This document shows, piece by piece, positions 18,163-63,704 of a stretch of 64,000 bases of DNA. Position 1 is the first letter of the stretch; every line of letters starts with the position of its first letter. Origin of the DNA: Arenibacter sp. ARW7G5Y1 (GTDB lineage: Bacteria > Bacteroidota > Bacteroidia > Flavobacteriales > Flavobacteriaceae); contig NZ_QJJZ01000002.1 of NCBI RefSeq assembly GCF_003201775.1, positions 186,001-250,000 of the forward strand. The letters are read 5' to 3'. The position numbers were made by a program, and so were the translations under genes. A model generated the notes under the pieces. The model was not told the origin of the DNA, did not search any database, and was given only the letters and a program-made list of their open reading frames with translations.

Positions 18163-19396
18163 TGGTTCGTTTAGTGTAAATCATTTCCAAAAATTTTTCA
18201 ACTGCTTTTTCTGCGAAGATCGGGTCATTAATATTGGCATCAATTTCTTCAATATCAATTTCAGGACTGAGGTTGCTCTTTAAAGCATCCAGAAATGCTT
18301 GGTCCGCCTGTGGATCCCAAAACAATTGTGGTTCATCTTTTTCATTTATTGAATCGAGCATAGAATACCCCTTGGTCGGTATAACAAATGCTATTTTTCC
18401 CTTTGCAGCATTGGCCTTTTGAGCAAATATTTTTCCCAGTTCCCGGTTTTCGTCTACAGTGGTCCTCATCAAAGTAACATTGGGGTTCCACTGATAGAAC
18501 AATCGGTTGTTGTACTTTGAATTGATGGTTTCGGGGCTTCCAAAATTGCACATATCAATGCATCCCGGGGCTATAAGATGGGGGATGCCCATTTTTCCTG
18601 GGGCTTCAAGCCTTTCATTTCCTGCGTCGAAGACCCCGCCACATAAGGTGTCGGCCCATTCAGTGGTGGTCAGGTCCAATACACCTTCTATGACTCCATC
18701 GTTAACCAATTTTTCCATGGTTTTGCCACCTGCTCCAGTAGCGTGAAATATGAGGACCTCAAAACCTTTTGAACTGAGCATATCGCGGCAGCGATCGATA
18801 CATGGCGTGGTATTTCCAAACATGGAGGCAGCAACTATGGGCTTTCCTTTCTCGATTTCCAATTTTACATCAAGCATTCCTGCCAATGCAGCTGCGGCAT
18901 TGGTCAGGAAAATTTTACTTATGGTATTTATCCCGGCTATATCGGTCAAGGAGGGTGCCAAAATAATATCACTGGTCCCCAAGTAGGGGCCAACATCCCC
19001 GGATGCTACTGTAGAGATGCATATTTTGGGCATTCCGAAGGGCAGCGATCTCATGGCGGCCGTGACCATATTTGTACCTGCCGTGCCACCCATTCCTATT
19101 ATGCCGTCAAATTGCTCTTTTGTGTGTAAACCTTTGGTTATCTCACTGGCGCCATTGGACATAACTGCAATTGCCTTGCCCCGGTCATTTGCTTCACGAA
19201 GGGTCGAGAGATCGGTTCCGGCAGCCCTTGCTACTTCCTGGGCGTCTATATCAATTTGAAATAGATCGGTAGCACCCATAACTCCGGTATTGATAGTAAT
19301 TACTTGGAATCCTCTTTTTATAAAAAGGTCTATCACGAATTTGTATTCGATCGCCTTAGTATCAAAAGCACCAATGACTACAATTTTTTTAGACAT
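18152..19396 (-). CDS. Tm-1-like ATP-binding (UPF0261) protein
   Basis: A 414-residue protein matching UPF0261 along its length: [18 protein letters not shown] at the N-terminus, [22 protein letters not shown] with a glycine-rich nucleotide-binding look, [13 protein letters not shown], and [22 protein letters not shown]. In tomato, Tm-1 joins this domain to a TIM barrel in one protein that blocks a tobamovirus replicase; the bacterial biochemical role is not established. Here the two halves are adjacent genes overlapping by 8 bp with the TIM-barrel gene upstream. It lacks any sign of being a defence gene; metabolic context is stronger. Confidence 0.93.
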
Positions 19397-20243
19397 TTTT
19401 TGGCTTGTTTTGTTTAAAGCTGATTTGTTTAAACCTTTTGATTTGATTGGTTATGGCCGTTTCGGTAGGGAGTCGCTCCATTGAACTGGCTCCGTAAAAC
19501 CCATCGACCCCTATTACCCGGTCCATGATATATTGGGCATCCTCAGGTTCTGCAATGGGACCACCATGACATAATACTATGACTTCCTTGTTCAAGTTTT
19601 TACAAGTGTCGACAATCTCCTGAATATCCAATACACATTGTTCCATGGATTTGGAAGTTTGGGCGCCTATTTTTCCTTTCGTGGTTAGCCCCATATGCGC
19701 AACTATGACGTCCGCACCAGCTTCGGTCATTAGCTTGGCTTCAGTGGGGTTAAATACATAGGGGGTCGTTAGTAATTCTAAACTTCTCGCTGCCTTTACA
19801 AGTTCTACTTCCAACATATAACTCATACCGGTCTCTTCCAAATTGGCCCTAAATCCCCCATCTATCAAACCTACCGTTGGGAAATTTTGAATACCGGCAA
19901 ACCCCATTCTTTTAAGGTCCTTTAAAAATGAATCCCGCAGCATAAATGGATCTGTCCCGCAAACCCCGGCCAATACGGGGGTATGTTTTACTGCTGGAAG
20001 GATTTCATAAGCCATTTCCTTGACAATGTCATTGGCATTGCCAAAAGGCAATAAACCTGATAACGAACCTCTGCCTGCCATCCGATAGCGACCGGAATTA
20101 TAGATAACGATAAGGTCTATACCTCCCGCTTCTTCACATTGGGCGGAAATTCCTGTGCCGGCTCCCCCCCCGATTATGGGTTGCCCTTGGGCGATTTTTT
20201 CTTTGAGACTCTCAAGAATCTCCATTCTAGTTTGTGTATTCAT
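19389..20243 (-). CDS. PEP-hydrolase-family TIM-barrel protein
   Basis: A 284-residue protein of the family once called TIM-barrel signal transduction protein, now PEP hydrolase-like. Key phrases: [17 protein letters not shown] (24-40), [19 protein letters not shown] (48-66), [12 protein letters not shown] (121-132), AHMGLTTKG with H183, and [11 protein letters not shown] with H226. It is first in the leftward operon and has a sigma-54 promoter 30 bp upstream. Its sequence resembles the N-terminal half of the divergent regulator at 20452-22197, which has asparagine and tyrosine in place of H183 and H226. The true substrate is unknown. Confidence 0.9.
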
Positions 20244-20451: not shown

Positions 20452-22197
20452 ATGGCTGTGTTTTCACTAAAAAATCTTGTTCGGGATACTTCAAAAATCT
20501 CATCGCCCATCATTTCAGTGGTGGCCGGAAATGGTCAAATAACCAAGTCCGCAGTGGCCTCAGGAGCCGATATGATAATAGCCCTAAATGCAGGGTTGTA
20601 TCGAAACATGGGCTTCGGTTCCCTTGCGGCCTTTATGCCATACGGTAACGCAAATGATCAAACCGAACAATTGCTGAGACAACATATCCTGATTCATACA
20701 AAAAATACTCCTGTGGTGGCTGGGGTTTTTGCCGCTGATTCTACCCAGCCCATTAGAAACCGATTGGATAGGTTAAAGGAACTTGGGGTGGAAGGCATAA
20801 CAAATTGGCCAGCAGTTGGATTCATTGATGGTAATTTTAGGTCCCACTTGGATGCGGAAGGAATCGACATATATAGTGAAGTGGAAATGCTGAAACAGGC
20901 AAAGGAATTTGGGTTTGTTACCTTCGGTTTTGCCCTGTCGGCCGAAGAAGCTTTCATATTTGCAAAAAATGGTGTTGATGCATTGATACTTAATGTAGGA
21001 CTTACTTTTGAAATTCAGGATACCATAGAAAAACGCAATCAATTACAACTGTCCATTACCAAGGCAAAAGAGATGTTGTCTAGAGTACATGAATCGGGAC
21101 GCGAACCCTTTTCCCTCATTTATGGCGGTTCCATCACTGAGCCTGAAGATTTTGTAGAGTTTTTTAAACAAGTTCCGATAAAGGGTTATGCGGGAGGGTC
21201 GGTTTTTGAGCGTTTCCCTGTAGTGGAAACTGTCAACACCAGGGTAAGAAGCTTTAAAAGTATATTTCTGGAAGATCATGGAACGAATCATCCTGAAAAA
21301 TTCGGAACCTTAATCGGGTCTTCGCCAAAAATGAAGAACCTGTTCAAATTAATACAGAAGATCGCCCCATATGATGTAAATGTGTGTATTGGGGGTGAAT
21401 CCGGTACAGGTAAAGAACTTGTGGCCACTCAAATCCATATGCTCAGTTCAAGGAAAAACAATCCGTTCATTACGGTCAATTGTGCCGCTATTCCCGATAC
21501 TCTTGTGGAAAGTGAGTTCTTTGGCTATGAAAAAGGAGCATTTACCGGGGCCACATATCGAAAGTTGGGCAAATTTGAACTTGCCAATAAAGGGACACTG
21601 TTTTTAGATGAAATAGCCGATTTAAGTCCACACGCCCAAGCTGCTTTGCTTAGGGTAATACAACAAGGGGAGATTGTTACACTGGGGGGGCAAAAACCAA
21701 TTCCCGTAGACGTAAGAATTCTTTGTGCCTCCAACCAAAACCTTGAGGAACTTGTTAAGGAGGATAAATTTAGATTGGATTTATACTTTCGTCTCAGTGC
21801 CATTACGATCAGCATTCCCCCCCTAAGGGAAAGAATAGGGGATATTCCCCTATTGGTAGCAAACATACTCAATAAACTCTCCATAAAATTTGACAAAAAA
21901 TTATTGGGTACTACCAAAGATTTTATGGATCAGCTCAAAAGTAATTACTGGCCCGGAAATGTTCGGGAACTGGAACAGGTGGTAACACGACATTCATTAA
22001 TTGAGGATAGCCCAATTTTACAAGGGGATTCCACGCTTTTTGGAGAAATGACTTTCCCTCAACAGGTGGTAACCTTGGATAAATACCAAAAAGCGCAAAA
22101 AGCCTTGATCGAGGCAGGATATAATAAATCCAAGGCCGCACTGGCATTGGGTATAAGTCGCAAAACACTTTACCAATGGCTTGAATCAAATAATTAG
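20452..22197 (+). CDS. Sigma-54 activator with TIM-barrel (PEP-hydrolase-like) sensor domain
   Basis: A 581-residue protein. Residues 1-275 are a TIM barrel related to the enzyme at 19389-20243 (NAGLYRNMGFGSLAAFMPYG, WPAVGFIDGNFR, YGGSITEPEDF). Residues about 285-520 are an AAA+ sigma-54 interaction module: Walker A GGESGTGKE near 313, the sigma-54 loop GAFTGA near 362, Walker B TLFLDEIADL near 384. A Fis-type helix-turn-helix closes it (NKSKAALALGISRKTLYQWL). The intact GAFTGA predicts true sigma-54 contact. H183 and H226 of the enzyme are N181 and Y224 here, so the barrel may sense rather than catalyse. Likely target: the divergent operon. Confidence 0.93.
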   Translation: MAVFSLKNLVRDTSKISSPIISVVAGNGQITKSAVASGADMIIALNAGLYRNMGFGSLAAFMPYGNANDQTEQLLRQHILIHTKNTPVVAGVFAADSTQPIRNRLDRLKELGVEGITNWPAVGFIDGNFRSHLDAEGIDIYSEVEMLKQAKEFGFVTFGFALSAEEAFIFAKNGVDALILNVGLTFEIQDTIEKRNQLQLSITKAKEMLSRVHESGREPFSLIYGGSITEPEDFVEFFKQVPIKGYAGGSVFERFPVVETVNTRVRSFKSIFLEDHGTNHPEKFGTLIGSSPKMKNLFKLIQKIAPYDVNVCIGGESGTGKELVATQIHMLSSRKNNPFITVNCAAIPDTLVESEFFGYEKGAFTGATYRKLGKFELANKGTLFLDEIADLSPHAQAALLRVIQQGEIVTLGGQKPIPVDVRILCASNQNLEELVKEDKFRLDLYFRLSAITISIPPLRERIGDIPLLVANILNKLSIKFDKKLLGTTKDFMDQLKSNYWPGNVRELEQVVTRHSLIEDSPILQGDSTLFGEMTFPQQVVTLDKYQKAQKALIEAGYNKSKAALALGISRKTLYQWLESNN

Positions 22198-22423: not shown

Positions 22424-22897
22424 ATGAAACAAATAACTGTAATTAAGGGAGATATTTTACAACGCAAAGGAGATATAAACACTAAGGCGTATATTGTTGA
22501 AAGTGGTTTACTGCGTAGCTATTCTATTGATGATAAAGGGAAGGAACACATTTATATGTTTGGACCGGAAAACTGGTTAGTGGCCGATATTTGCGAGTCC
22601 AACACCCCTTGCCAACTTTATATAGATGTAATTGAGGACGCTGTCCTGACAGTGGCTTCCAAAGAGGAGTTAATGGAAAGAGGTCCGGACATTGATGCTC
22701 TGTTGAGACGATTAAATACAATGCAGGCCAGGATTATAATGTTAATGAGTTCCAATGCTTTGGAGCGATATGAACATTTTGTTCAAACCTATCCAAACAT
22801 TATCCAACGGGTACCTCTAAAAATGATTGCCTCTTATTTGGGAATTACACCCGAAGCTTTGAGTCGTGTTCGACATCAACTAACCCAAAGAAAATAA
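22424..22897 (+). CDS. Crp/Fnr-family transcriptional regulator
   Basis: A 157-residue protein, shorter than the usual 190-230 because the cyclic-nucleotide-like domain starts late (IKGDILQRKGDINTKAYIVESGLLRSY). The C-terminal winged helix is complete (LKMIASYLGITPEALSRVRHQL). The recognition helix has E144-x-x-S147-R148, the FNR pattern known to read TTGAT half-sites. Only two cysteines are present, so an FNR-type iron-sulfur sensor is not evident. A perfect TTGAT-N4-ATCAA box lies 14 bp after its stop, before the next gene. Confidence 0.9.
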   Translation: MKQITVIKGDILQRKGDINTKAYIVESGLLRSYSIDDKGKEHIYMFGPENWLVADICESNTPCQLYIDVIEDAVLTVASKEELMERGPDIDALLRRLNTMQARIIMLMSSNALERYEHFVQTYPNIIQRVPLKMIASYLGITPEALSRVRHQLTQRK

Positions 22898-22910
22898 GCC
22901 TATTTCATTT

Positions 22911-22926
22911 CTTGATGTACATCAAG
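22911..22926 (+). promoter_or_regulatory. Perfect FNR-type box upstream of the DoxX gene
   Basis: CTTGATGTACATCAAG contains the exact TTGAT-N4-ATCAA consensus. A TTTG -7 half-element follows at 22952-22955; the box centre is 36.5 bp from its G, which places the box near -41, a class II activation position. Confidence 0.8.
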
Positions 22927-22979
22927 GCAGGGGTTCTCCAAATGAGGGAGTTTTGTGCCATCAAATAAATATAAGAGAA

Positions 22980-23387
22980 ATGACAAATCAAAAAAACAAC
23001 AAGGCAATTCATATAGTATTGTGGGTTGCACAGGGATTATTGGCAGCTATGTTTATCATGGCGGGTTTAATGAAGGCATCCCAGCCTATTGAAGTATTGG
23101 CGGAATCAGTTCCGTGGGTAACGGAGGTTTCCTCCGGTTTGGTACGCTTTATTGGAATTAGTGAATTATTAGGGGGCTTAGGTTTAATAATACCTTCCAT
23201 TTTTCGATTCAAAACCTTTTTAACTGTTTGGGCTGCTCTTGGTCTTGCTGCAGTAATGGTATTGGCTGCTGGATTTCATGCCTCACAAGGTGAATTTTCC
23301 GCTATCGGAATGAATATTGTATTACTTGCAATTGCTTTATTTATTGCTTGGGGCAGGAGTAAAAAAACACCAATTCTGGCCAAGTAA
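22980..23387 (+). CDS. DoxX-family inner-membrane protein
   Basis: From the ATG at 22980 (135 residues, preceded by AAGAGA), rather than a GTG 27 bp earlier. Four hydrophobic segments are seen at about 12-30, 48-70, 75-95 and 100-120, with LLAAMFIMAGLMKASQP and ISELLGGLGLIIPSI as in DoxX/DoxX-like proteins. Some DoxX proteins act in oxidative or thiol stress complexes, but the role here is unknown. An FNR-type box lies 54 bp upstream, so expression probably follows oxygen or nitrogen-oxide status. Confidence 0.85.
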   Translation: MTNQKNNKAIHIVLWVAQGLLAAMFIMAGLMKASQPIEVLAESVPWVTEVSSGLVRFIGISELLGGLGLIIPSIFRFKTFLTVWAALGLAAVMVLAAGFHASQGEFSAIGMNIVLLAIALFIAWGRSKKTPILAK

Positions 23388-23549: not shown

Positions 23550-23993
23550 ATGGAGAAGAGCAAAATTAAAAATATATTTGTGTCAGGAGCAATAAGCCCG
23601 GAGTTCATTGCCAATTCCATTGCAAAGCACCAGTCCAAAACCACTATTGGGGCACACGATATCTTTTTGGGCCAGGTACGGGCAGATCCAATTGATGGGC
23701 AGGAAGTGGCCGCTATAGAATATACGGCCTATGAGGAAATGGCCAATCAGAAATTCCACGAAATCAGGGAAGCTACCTTTGCCAGGTTTAACTTAAGCTG
23801 TATGCACATCCACCACAGTTTGGGTAAGGTAAATGCGGGAGAAATATGCCTCTTTGTTTTTGTGTCATCGCCACACCGAAAAGAAGTTTTTGAGGCCATG
23901 CACCATGTGGTGGAAGAGATAAAAAATCAGGTTCCCATTTTTGGTAAGGAACTGTTTGAGGATAATTCCTATCAATGGAAAGTAAATAAGTAA
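23550..23993 (+). CDS. moaE: Molybdopterin synthase catalytic subunit
   Basis: 147 residues from the ATG at 23550; a TTG-type start 24 bp earlier is less likely. Typical MoaE phrases: HDIFLGQVRAD, AIEYTAYEEMA, IHHSLGKVNAGEICLFVFVSSPHRKEVFEA and the C-terminal PIFGKELF with the catalytic lysine. It inserts sulfur into precursor Z with MoaD. It ends two bases before moaC. moaA, moaD and mogA are not in this window. Confidence 0.95.
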   Translation: MEKSKIKNIFVSGAISPEFIANSIAKHQSKTTIGAHDIFLGQVRADPIDGQEVAAIEYTAYEEMANQKFHEIREATFARFNLSCMHIHHSLGKVNAGEICLFVFVSSPHRKEVFEAMHHVVEEIKNQVPIFGKELFEDNSYQWKVNK

Positions 23994-23995
23994 AA

Positions 23996-24427
23996 ATGGT
24001 AGATATTACCCATAAAAAAGCAACCTTGCGTACAGCTGTAGCACAAGCTATAGTTCAAGTAAGTTCGGCAGATACCATTAGCGCAATACATAATAAAACC
24101 GTGCCCAAGGGCGATGTGTTTGCCATGAGCAAAGCGGCCGGTTTATTGGGGGTTAAAAAGACGGCAGACCTTTTGCCGGACTGTCATCCCTTACCTATAG
24201 AATTTACCGATATTTCCTATGCTATTGACGGTCTTCGGATTACGGTTTTGGTTACGGTGAAGACTATCTACAAAACCGGCGTTGAGGTAGAGGCCATGCA
24301 CGGCGCCAGCATAGTGGCCCTAAATATGTACGATATGCTAAAGCCCATAGACAAGGGCATCGAAATACAGAATATTAAATTATTGAGAAAAACGGGAGGT
24401 AAGTCCGATATAGGTAGCGACCTATAA
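23996..24427 (+). CDS. moaC: Cyclic pyranopterin monophosphate synthase
   Basis: 143 residues. MoaC hallmarks are present: MSKAAGLLGVKKTADLLPDCHPLP and VEVEAMHGASIVALNMYDMLKPIDKGIEI, then LLRKTGGKSD. With MoaA it makes the first molybdopterin precursor. It follows moaE by two bases, so the pair is co-transcribed and probably translationally linked. Confidence 0.96.
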   Translation: MVDITHKKATLRTAVAQAIVQVSSADTISAIHNKTVPKGDVFAMSKAAGLLGVKKTADLLPDCHPLPIEFTDISYAIDGLRITVLVTVKTIYKTGVEVEAMHGASIVALNMYDMLKPIDKGIEIQNIKLLRKTGGKSDIGSDL

Positions 24428-60605: not shown

Positions 60606-61310
60606 TTAATTCACCAATTCCATAATTTTGGATACCGTTTCCTTATTGTTGACTCCTAGCCCTTCTTGCTGATAGGCCAATTCCCCTTCTTGGTCAAAAA
60701 CGCTTATGATATTGGAATGTGAAAAATCCATAGGCGATATTTTTTTGTAGTTGACCGCCAATACTGCCGAAAATTCACGGGTATCCGCTTCCGAACCTCT
60801 TAGAAACACCCATTTTTCAGAGTCCATTTGATTTTCCTGTGCAAATTCCTTTAAACGCTGTGGCGTATCTGTTTCAGGGTCTATACTGACAAAAACAAGG
60901 GTAACCTGGTCTTTTTTATCCTCGGGGATTTGCTCTTCTATACCTCTCATGTCTGCAACCAATCTGGGGCATGCCGTCTGACAAGAGGTGTAGATCATGA
61001 CCATGACCAATACATCGCCTTTCAGCGACTTCAATTGTATTTCCCCATTGTTCTGATTGGTCCATTTGGAAGGAAGATTATAAATGGACATATCGGAGAT
61101 TTCACCTTCTTTTTTGGAGTTCAGGGCCAGTAGTTGTAGATCCATTTTACAAACGCCGCATGTACCGGGTTTATCATAGGTCTTGTCTCCCTCACAATGC
61201 ATGGGACATTGGTATTTTTCCGCTGTTGTTTTGGTTGAATTTTTTGTATTGCACCCTATAGGATGTATTGCCAAAAAGCATATCAATCCAGCATGGAGAA
61301 TTTTTTTCAT
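60606..61310 (-). CDS. SCO-family copper protein with heavy-metal-binding N-domain, lipoprotein
   Basis: 234 residues. A lipoprotein signal ends in PIGC (C20). A short metal-binding domain (CPMHCEGDKTYDKPGTCGVCK) precedes the SCO domain, with copper ligands C110-x-x-x-C114 and a late histidine in MDFSHSN. SCO proteins deliver copper or act as thiol-disulfide reductases. In this operon it probably serves the copper nitrite reductase. Confidence 0.9.
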   Translation of the reverse strand: MKKILHAGLICFLAIHPIGCNTKNSTKTTAEKYQCPMHCEGDKTYDKPGTCGVCKMDLQLLALNSKKEGEISDMSIYNLPSKWTNQNNGEIQLKSLKGDVLVMVMIYTSCQTACPRLVADMRGIEEQIPEDKKDQVTLVFVSIDPETDTPQRLKEFAQENQMDSEKWVFLRGSEADTREFSAVLAVNYKKISPMDFSHSNIISVFDQEGELAYQQEGLGVNNKETVSKIMELVN

Positions 61311-61314
61311 TTCC

Positions 61315-62118
61315 TTAATAAGTTACGTTTTTGTTGTTTTTCCCTTTCGCCTGCACACATCGGAATCCCAAATTGCGTATGGCATAATTGGCCTTTAAAC
61401 TTCCCCTAAAAGCGTAACGCATGAAGGCGGCATAGTTCATCAAGTCCGATGCTCCTACCGCGGCACTTCCACAAAAAAGATTACTGTCCTTGTCCACATC
61501 CTTTCTGGATTCACCGGAAATTAAAACGGAATTAAAGTCCATCGTCCACTCCCATACAAGGCCGTGAAGGTCATAAATACCCCAATAATTTTTAAAGGTG
61601 GAGCCTATGGAATTGTTAAATGTTTTTGGAGCTTCGTACCAATCCAGAATAAGTTGATTATAGGATTCCTTTTTACGAGCATCTGGATTGCTTTTATCGG
61701 CCATAGCGGCATATTCCCACTCATCAACCGTTGGTAATCTTTTTCCTTGGCATTCACAATATTTTTTGGCGGCGAACCAAGAAACGTTGGTTACCGCTGC
61801 ATCGGCGGCCAACTGGTTTCCAAAGGAATTATCACTTTCCCAATTCACCAAGTAATTGCCATCTGCAAATAAGCGCTTAACCTTACTTTTTTTCCATTCA
61901 GGGTATTCCAGGACAAACTGTAAATACTCCCTGTTGGTTACTGGGTAGATGTCCATCGAAAACGTCTCTACGGTAACGGCTGTTGAATCTACACCATATA
62001 GGGGAATATAAGTCCCTCCTTGAACGGTAACCATATTTTCTGATTGGGCGGAAACAATATTTACTGTTATGATACCGATCACTGTAATGGCTACTTTAAA
62101 AAAGGGACTTATGTTCAT
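61315..62118 (-). CDS. Formylglycine-generating-enzyme-family (SUMF1) protein
   Basis: 267 residues from the ATG at 62118. It has a signal peptide and the SUMF1 fold: FSMDIYPVTNREYLQF, VTNVSWFAAKKYCECQGKRLPTVDEWEYAA, DLHGLVWEWT and NLGFRC. The catalytic cysteine pair of true FGE is not evident. Encoded between nirK and SCO, with short gaps, so a role in NirK maturation is plausible. Confidence 0.88.
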   Translation of the reverse strand: MNISPFFKVAITVIGIITVNIVSAQSENMVTVQGGTYIPLYGVDSTAVTVETFSMDIYPVTNREYLQFVLEYPEWKKSKVKRLFADGNYLVNWESDNSFGNQLAADAAVTNVSWFAAKKYCECQGKRLPTVDEWEYAAMADKSNPDARKKESYNQLILDWYEAPKTFNNSIGSTFKNYWGIYDLHGLVWEWTMDFNSVLISGESRKDVDKDSNLFCGSAAVGASDLMNYAAFMRYAFRGSLKANYAIRNLGFRCVQAKGKNNKNVTY

Positions 62119-62138
62119 TTTATTGTTATGCAATTATG

Positions 62139-63599
62139 TTATTTATTTCTTACACTTTTAACCATGGCTGGAGTGACGTCCTTTTTGGAATTGCCCCAAC
62201 TGTTGTACACATAGGTCAGTACATTGGCAACCTCTTCGTCAGATAAGGTCTGCGCGGTCATAACACTGTTGTATTTTTGTCCGTTCACGGTTATTTCACC
62301 TGTTTTTCCGTGCAATACTATATCTATAGCGCGATTAACATCGGCATTCAGGTAATCGGATTTCGCCAAGGGCGGGAAAGCGTTGGCAATACCTTGGCCC
62401 TCTGCTTGATGGCAGGCAAAACAGGTTTGCATATAGGTGGCTTTTCCAAACTCCATCTTTTCCTCCATTGATTTGGCGGGAATTTCGGACTCCACAACGC
62501 CATTGGTCGATGGCATTTTTTGTATCCCACTACCTTCGGGCAGGTATATTCCATCTTCCAATTCTCCGGAATAGATAGTCTTATTTTTTTCGCCCTGCAC
62601 CTTCAACATTCCCAATGCACCTTTATTAAATGCTCTGAAAATGGAATGGTCTACCAGGATAAAGGTTCCGGGAACATCTACTTTAAATTCTACTATAGCG
62701 GCCCCACCGGCGGGGATTAAGGTGGTTTGCACATTTTCATTGATCAAATCGCCACCTTCAACATGCACCTTGTCAAAAATCTCACCAATTACATGAAAGG
62801 AGGATACCAGATTTGGTCCACCGTTGCCAACGAACAGGCGTACTGTTTCTCCCACGTTGGCTGTAATTGCATTATCCCCGGTCAAGGCGCCCATTTTACC
62901 ATTGAAAACCACATAGTCTGCGCGTTCATCCACCGCTTTTTGCATATCAAAAGGTTGTAAGCCTCGCTCCCCATTGGCACCTTTGGTATAAAAGTCGCCT
63001 TGCATAATGTAATATTCCTTATCCACCAATGGCAATCCACCTTCCGGTTCTACTAAAATTAAACCGTACATTCCGTTGGCAATATGCATACCAACCGGTG
63101 CGGTAGCACAGTGATAAACGTACAGCCCAGGATTTAAGGTTTTAAAGGAGAATACTTTCTCGTGTCCAGGGGCTACAAAAGAAGATTCTGCACCGCCTCC
63201 AGGGCCCGTAACCGCGTGTAAATCAATATTATGGGGTAATTTATTTTCTGGGTGATTTTTTAAGTGAAATTCAACCTCATCACCAACCCTTGTTCTTATA
63301 AAGCTTCCTGGTACGGTACCTCCAAAAGTCCAATAAACATATCGAACGCCATTGGTCATTTCTCCTTCCTGTTCCAGGATTTCCATATCGACCTTTAGCA
63401 ACTTGGCCTTTCTGTCGCCAACGGGGGTTGGTACATGTGGAGGGGATGTTAATTCTGCAATCATTTCACGATTCGCTGGAATATCCGCTGTGCTTTCATA
63501 AACTTTCTTTTCCTTTTTTGCACATGAGAGGATCAGGCTTCCAAATCCTACTGCCAATATTAGGGAGAGGAATATTTTTTTTGTCAGTTGTGTGTTCAT
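62139..63599 (-). CDS. nirK: Copper-containing nitrite reductase with C-terminal cytochrome c, lipoprotein
   Basis: 486 residues from the ATG at 63599, lipobox LILSC (C26). All copper ligands are seen: type 1 H123, C164, H172, M177; type 2 H128, H163 and H318. The catalytic pair D126 and H269 is present. A cytochrome c domain closes the protein (C393-F-A-C396-H397). It reduces nitrite to nitric oxide on the outside face. First gene of the operon. Confidence 0.96.
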
Positions 63600-63658: not shown

Positions 63659-63666
63659 CAAAAATA
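63659..63666 (-). promoter_or_regulatory. nirK -7 promoter element (TATTTTTG)
   Basis: Perfect TAnnTTTG on the minus strand, 59 bp before the nirK start. No -33 TTTG is present at the right distance; the FNR-type palindrome lies there instead, as expected for an activator-dependent promoter. Confidence 0.65.
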
Positions 63667-63686: not shown

Positions 63687-63704
63687 ACATGACAGTTGTC
63701 ATGT
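63687..63704. promoter_or_regulatory. FNR/DNR-type palindrome upstream of nirK
   Basis: ACATGACA and TGTCATGT are perfect arms around GT; the core is TGAC-N4-GTCA, like NO- or oxygen-responsive Crp/Fnr sites. The centre is 36.5 bp from the G of the -7 element, the same as at the doxX promoter. Confidence 0.75.

Follow-up and report, generated by a model that had tools for sequence, protein, structure and literature searches.

Within the 64,000-nucleotide stretch of Arenibacter sp. ARW7G5Y1 DNA analysed here (the window), a gene for a small Crp/Fnr-type regulator is followed by an FNR-like box and a doxX-like gene, and about 40 kb away nirK is preceded by a box at the same distance from its promoter element. 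The initial annotation took the identical spacing to point to a single activator class for both promoters. The locus raises the question of which protein reads the box before doxX, and whether the same protein reads the box before nirK.

The regulator, its candidate operator and the doxX promoter

The regulator gene (22424..22897, plus strand), recognized as an open reading frame and through PF00027, a structure model and Foldseek, encodes 157 amino acids from the ATG at 22424. The product scores 30.9 bits against the CRP/FNR superfamily beta-roll family PF00027 (cut-off 27.5), and the Pfam search returned no HTH family. The structure model (mean pLDDT 89.7) has the CRP/FNR fold with a beta-roll, a dimer helix and a C-terminal helix-turn-helix ending in the recognition helix; this helix (residues 143-156) is the last element of the protein, with no wing after it in the model. 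It carries E144, A145, S147 and R148, of which the initial annotation had correctly read E144, S147 and R148 from the translation. Among the 50 Foldseek matches listed, FNR and CRP structures match the model with probability 1.00 and TMq of 0.68-0.87. The best relative of solved structure by sequence is 3dn7 (E 7.3e-19; 194 aa, entry name 'Cyclic nucleotide binding regulatory protein'), for which we know of no operator, and among named genomes the nearest relative, at 92% identity, comes from Arenibacter echinorum (Flavobacteriaceae).

Excerpts of PMC4505428 give Glu-209, Ser-212 and Arg-213 as the main contacts of FNR to the FNR box; the E, S and R of the present regulator lie at the equivalent positions, and its box, as that of E. 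coli FNR, is TTGATN4ATCAA. The class II geometry predicted for doxX and the fold, which in the model is shared with the A. fischeri FNR structures, add to the likeness. Unlike FNR, the regulator appears to be local, lacks a wing in the model, scores 23.7 bits against the NCBIfam Fnr model (cut-off 228) and starts at the beta-roll, without the N-terminal cluster-binding cysteines. Its two cysteines, C57 and C63, lie within the beta-roll; the open frame extends 18 codons upstream of the ATG, with one cysteine and without a usual start codon, and the close relatives L058-L061 and L065, with their start codons deduced, likewise begin at the beta-roll. The helix motif is common to many paralogues. 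The genome has 22 PF00027 matches, of which L001-L005 and L011 were excluded from the module set on account of other architectures; among its 16 small Crp/Fnr paralogues nine have ExxSR and a tenth ExxCR (E and R in 10/16). ExxSR was rejected as sufficient evidence because it is generic among these paralogues.

The candidate operator TTGATGTACATCAA (22912..22925), which sequence and module comparison mark as the putative site of the adjoining regulator, lies 14 bases after the regulator stop codon. It is the exact TTGATN4ATCAA noted in the initial annotation, and forms a full dyad, spacer included, centred at 22918.5. The -7 promoter element GAGTTTTG (22948..22955, plus strand; consensus TAnnTTTG, from the sequence and excerpts of PMC9723704) predicts a transcription start at about 22960; its TTTG occupies 22952-22955, with the G 36.5 bp from the box centre. 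As the flavobacterial sigma-A box TAnnTTTG sits at -12 to -5, a position carried over from what excerpts of PMC9723704 describe for F. psychrophilum, the predicted operator centre falls at -41.5 of doxX, the class II position. The inferred target is the gene for a doxX-like membrane protein (22980..23387, plus strand; PF13564), which is the neighbour in L058 and L384-L388 as well.

Two further features of the neighbourhood deserve mention. The genes moaE and moaC (23553-24427, plus strand) lie directly downstream of doxX. A sigma-54 activator is encoded at 20452-22197 (plus strand), with an N-terminal half that matches the PEP_hydrolase-like family PF09370 at 250 bits; a separate, adjoining gene (19389-20243, minus strand) looks similar by eye, and the sensor domain of the activator may have been recruited from a neighbouring enzyme.

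Operator layout behind small Crp/Fnr regulators

Relatives of the regulator often have related but different boxes right behind their stop codons, before unrelated genes. The small regulators of this genome and the family-genome loci gave 202 training loci, or 199 after three identical proteins were dropped. When perfect 5-4-5 inverted repeats were sought downstream of these 199 regulators irrespective of their letters, TTTG followed at 36.5 in 50 cases. No other distance between 19.5 and 58.5 had more than five, and the three controls (upstream, reverse-strand and shuffled) had no more than one at 36.5. With only four of the five pairs required, 90/199 modules qualify at 36.5 versus 3-13 at twelve other spacings. 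The same preference recurs in further loci: 58 held-out modules of other families (69 loci, L285-L353, less 11 of the regulator's own family) have 14 boxes at 36.5 and 0-5 at other spacings, and the clade of the regulator as represented in named genomes (the named clade) has 38 boxes at 36.5 and at most two at any other distance. These counts indicate a layout held by many such regulators, not all. A box score built on the fixed T/A positions, the dyad and TTTG, in which bases 3 and 5 could be any letter, placed boxes downstream of 162/257 regulators at threshold 7 (two control regions had 16 and 18) and of 216/257 at threshold 6.5 (74 and 91 in the controls); in this genome a box reaches threshold behind 9/16 small regulators.

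The genes behind relatives of the regulator were read by eye as doxX, pirin-like, SnoaL-like, FMN-reductase-like, CDGSH-type and other Fe-S-like, YceI-like, RibA-like and glycosylase-like, the doxX of the window being the one target checked by family search (PF13564). These neighbours suggest that the signal might be redox, Fe-S or electrophile stress. In the named clade, the 64 threshold boxes among all 80 loci have in common an ATTTC before the box and a TGCATA directly after it, which in the target promoters spans about -34 to -29. The window has GGCA where the clade has TGCA; this TGCA may act as a -33 promoter element or provide an additional contact.

Covariation of the recognition helix with the operator

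With protein columns of more than 30% gaps skipped, the column of E144 is the best predictor of base 3, clearly so for the right half of the box, the promoter-proximal one (0.72 bits; next column 0.53), and by a narrow margin for the left half (0.34 versus 0.32 bits), and the columns of A145 and R148 best predict base 5 in both halves. Across the 162 boxes, the residues at 144 and 148 go with distinct letters at base 3 of the right half: E..R with G (39/40), V/I..R with A (34/36), T..R with T (19/20), Q..T with C (5/5), Q..R with A (3/3), and E with any residue other than R or K at 148 with A (16/17); E..K is divided between A (29/37) and G (8/37), and G occurs without E144 behind one S..R and one F..R protein. 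The initial annotation had named E144-x-x-S147-R148 as the known FNR code for TTGAT, and in these boxes the link of E144 and R148 with a TTGA half holds for the promoter-proximal side, in 39/40 E..R boxes and, as detailed below, 10/10 in the own clade. The distal half is looser, with G in 17/40 and A in 22/40 E..R boxes and T in 12/20 T..R boxes; for V/I..R and most other classes both halves agree, and the doxX box is symmetric, this comparison being one between halves that are not independent, since the box selection favours dyads. In E..R boxes the distal half frequently reads TTAAC or TTACC rather than TTGAT, with TCAA kept in the proximal half; this systematic asymmetry may have a bearing on class II activation.

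When regulators were paired by identity outside the helix, agreement at base 3 was higher with the same residue 144 than with a different one up to 60% identity (0.47 versus 0.34 below 25%, 0.49 versus 0.20 at 25-35%, 0.47 versus 0.21 at 35-45% and 0.80 versus 0.17 at 45-60%); above 60%, where 21 pairs differ, there was no gain (0.89 versus 0.90). Phylogenetically independent pairs, taken from the tree, were few and did not reach significance, and on average none went the wrong way for G at base 3: seven pairs on supported branches gave about 4.8 in the predicted direction and 0 in the other (median p 0.06), and a second tree gave four (median p 0.125).

The residue-base rules and the box selection rule were fixed before the held-out modules were searched. 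The 58 modules gave 14 boxes under the preset selection rule, eight of them covered by a residue-base rule: five agree with it (one E+R and four T+R), a V+R box agrees in a single half, and two disagree, one each of T+R and E+K. A looser test, which asks for the predicted right half within 70 bases and was framed after the held-out boxes had been seen, supported RTCAA for E+R (13/17 against 11/41, p 6e-4), GTAAA for T+R (9/16 against 5/42, p 1e-3) and the rule for E with a small residue (2/2, p 0.047) in the other families. For V/I+R it was not significant (4/12 against 7/46, p 0.16), and upstream control regions gave nothing. The rule E+K to ATTAA failed this test on the training set itself (5/10 against 83/189), and two held-out EFLSK regulators have, by eye, TTGAA boxes contrary to it.

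The clearest test of the code, at the level of sequence, is offered by the named clade. Its 80 loci (L384-L463), less five that share the last 90 residues with a training protein, left 75 modules, encoding proteins non-identical to those of the training set (which did include other clade members), and these yielded 60 boxes. Base 3 of the right half is G in 10/10 E..R boxes, A in 26/26 E..K boxes, A in 11/11 boxes of E with other residues (nine E+{A,S,T}, one E..H, one E..N) and C in 11/11 Q..T/R/V boxes (nine Q..T, one Q..R, one Q..V), these last with C in the left half in 4/11. One Q..S protein goes with T, and one EALSK protein, read by eye, with A; For E..R, E..K, E+{A,S,T} and Q..T these letters agree with the prediction; E..H, E..N, Q..R, Q..V and Q..S had no preset rule. 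The preset base-5 rule, TTAAG for E+{S,A,T}, failed here, with T rather than G in 8/9 boxes, and base 3 held. These E+{S,A,T} regulators have A at residue 145 instead of F, H or Y, so that the failure is consistent with column 145 governing base 5.

A more direct comparison comes from doxX itself. Its orthologues behind EALSR regulators (L058, L384-L387) have the box TTGATGTACATCAA, and those behind EYLSD regulators (L073, L081), which are 81 and 75% identical doxX genes, have TTAAGGTATCTTAT and TTAAGATACCTTAA. The target being the same and the box differing with the type of regulator, the box follows the regulator. Suitable boxes for comparison with TTGATGTACATCAA are TTAATGTACATTAA and TTCATGTACATGAA: according to the code, R148K should move the preference at base 3 from G to A, and E144Q/R148T from G to C. 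Taken at the level of sequence, comparison across the modules establishes the box, its position, its geometry and its covariation with the helix.

Local Crp/Fnr regulons have a reported precedent in other bacteria: Kazakov et al. in 2013, to judge by the title, reportedly described singleton regulons of Crp/Fnr and other families in Desulfovibrionales. Part of the code is likewise familiar. Excerpts of PMC2610375 describe CprK of Desulfitobacterium, with Val-192 in place of FNR Glu-209, as binding the dehalobox TTAATN4ATTAA, one strand of the same base pair having T in place of C; the A found here with V/I..R (34/36) matches this case, and the E/V part of the code is, as far as these excerpts go, already known from FNR and CprK. 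CprK has its own features, a chlorophenol ligand and an ordered C-terminal tail contacting DNA, and the pairings of T with T and Q..T with C, the changes at 148 and the association of 145 with base 5 go beyond it. According to excerpts of PMC4052901 and PMC5045206 that cite them, Desai et al. (2009) derived residue-base correlations in the CRP/FNR family by comparative genomics and built retargeted proteins; overlap of the present code with their rules is possible. Excerpts of PMC2978694 (Camas et al. 2010) describe a two-residue, two-base code which, like ours, was read from local regulation, there in the LacI family and not in Crp/Fnr. HcpR was set aside as a model, as the excerpts of PMC12750200 gave no operator position. 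A search limited to open-licence literature found, among the papers listed, none on local Crp/Fnr modules of Bacteroidota or their code, and no description of the Bacteroidota module layout at -41.5, of the pairings T-T and Q..T-C, of the substitutions at 148 or of the link of 145 and 148 to base 5.

Two box classes and the probable reading of the doxX switch

The genome (5.73 Mb) contains 27 copies of the perfect TTGATN4ATCAA against seven for a reversed-pattern control, and in the window boxes with up to one mismatch show no excess (15 versus 12.7 expected). The doxX copy alone has TTTG at 36.5; a genome regulon of this sequence was rejected, as the other 26 lack TTTG at that distance and 21/27 fall, by a simple ORF call, inside open reading frames. 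The genome-wide enrichment of box-to-TTTG spacing that the initial annotation had proposed looking for does appear with the shorter core: TGAYN4RTCA followed by TTTG after 26-28 bases has 41 matches against four for a backward-read control, 28 of them with the 27 bases that correspond to 36.5, six with 26 and seven with 28. All 28 sites at exactly 36.5 were inspected, and the 25 that are intergenic by the same simple call divide by their outer bases into four TTGAYN4RTCAA sites and 21 [ACG]TGAYN4RTCA[TG] sites. The four are the doxX box, boxes directly behind the small E..R regulators L015 and L022 (so that three of the four lie directly behind such regulators), and TTGATCATAGTCAA (L464; 1503-1516, G000 C26). 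The latter lies, 36.5 from TTTG, between two genes without an adjoining regulator. The stop codon of L009, an E..R regulator with no box of its own behind it, is about 1.3 kb away, and the gene that follows TTGATCATAGTCAA has no Pfam match.

The second class includes nirK (62139..63599, minus strand), a copper nitrite reductase with a C-terminal cytochrome c domain (PF00034; TIGR02376 above cut-off). Its box ATGACAACTGTCAT (63689..63702, minus-strand reading) and -7 element TATTTTTG (63659..63666, minus strand), with TTTG ending at 63659, are again 36.5 apart, as the initial annotation had measured for both promoters. The box has the [ACG]TGAYN4RTCA[TG] form, conserved in other promoters, and the doxX box does not have it. 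Among nirK promoters taken from 30 of 39 matches listed, 23 (the present one included) have this form, 16 of them at exactly 36.5, none has TTGAY...RTCAA and seven have neither. From the two classes, a response of doxX to oxygen or nitrite is not expected on sequence. Among 38 of the 41 core matches, for which neighbouring genes were examined, nirK-class sites lie beside hemN (which passes its NCBIfam cut-off), a putative CcoI-like copper ATPase (only the general P-type ATPase model reached its cut-off), universal-stress-like genes recognized by eye and, as a divergent pair, L003. This last encodes a regulator with N-terminal cysteines, an NCBIfam Fnr score of 106.9 bits (cut-off 228), and E and R in the corresponding helix; the cysteines, together with the divergent boxes beside its gene, suggest that it is the likely reader of the nirK-class boxes. 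Two observations may be added here. The nirK region (60606-63599, minus strand), comprising nirK with its fused cytochrome c, an FGE-sulfatase-type gene and a SCO1/SenC-type gene, looks like one unit. Contig C9 of G000 has, at about 53000-141000, a cluster of many nirK-class boxes, several in divergent pairs, with universal-stress-like genes and two response-regulator/CRP fusions (L001 and, by eye, L004).

It is possible, if rather doubtful, that the doxX box is a shared target, read by the local regulator and also by L003 in low oxygen or by other E..R paralogues: it contains the core of the nirK class, L003 and 10/16 small paralogues have E and R, and the TTGAY...RTCAA site at L464 is not directly behind any regulator. 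That a box reaches threshold behind just 9/16 small regulators, with E and R in 10/16, makes such cross-binding conceivable; against a role for L003, the outer T...A of the doxX box occurs in 0/21 nirK-class sites. Local regulators are often autoregulatory, which favours a protein that represses doxX or a box that serves the regulator gene itself. We regard this as unlikely, as the box lies downstream of the regulator gene, TTTG stands at a fixed distance on the target side (50 versus at most five), and -41.5 is, for CRP and FNR, the position of a class II activator. A single FNR-class regulator, local or global FNR, acting on doxX and nirK through one box type is very improbable: the identical spacing and common core TGAYN4RTCA do speak for the single activator class of the initial annotation, but a common regulator was rejected on box class, as the outer bases separate four sites from 21, nirK promoters belong to the second class in 23/30 cases and to the first in none, and the doxX box changes with the neighbouring regulator.

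Very probably, then, the doxX module is a local switch, with nirK under separate control. The 157-aa regulator would bind as a dimer to the palindrome TTGATGTACATCAA behind its own gene, where E144 and R148 would recognize the G:C pair at the third position of TTGAT, and from -41.5 would activate, rather than repress, doxX as a class II activator, presumably in response to a redox or electrophile signal. The nirK box, of the same geometry, would most likely be the site of a cysteine-bearing FNR-like regulator encoded elsewhere in the genome. For the window, the control of doxX is thereby set apart from that of nirK.

There is a larger pattern behind the doxX module than the initial annotation suggested. 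The switch would be one of many Bacteroidota modules of a small regulator, an operator and a neighbouring target, in which the operator varies with residues 144, 145 and 148. These genomes are rich in small Crp/Fnr regulators, which are almost unstudied in the literature searched. We lean towards the view that Crp/Fnr switches with a single target are very numerous in the Bacteroidota and share one fixed promoter layout and a legible code (144 with base 3; 145 and 148 with base 5), in which R148K-like substitutions give a new operator in nature. If so, the operator and target of an unstudied regulator could be read from its last 15 residues. The fixed operator position and the helix-to-box code would allow such predictions for many regulators at once, and the modules would provide a natural substitution series for the joint change of regulators and their sites, as well as matched regulator-promoter pairs for laboratory use in Bacteroidota.
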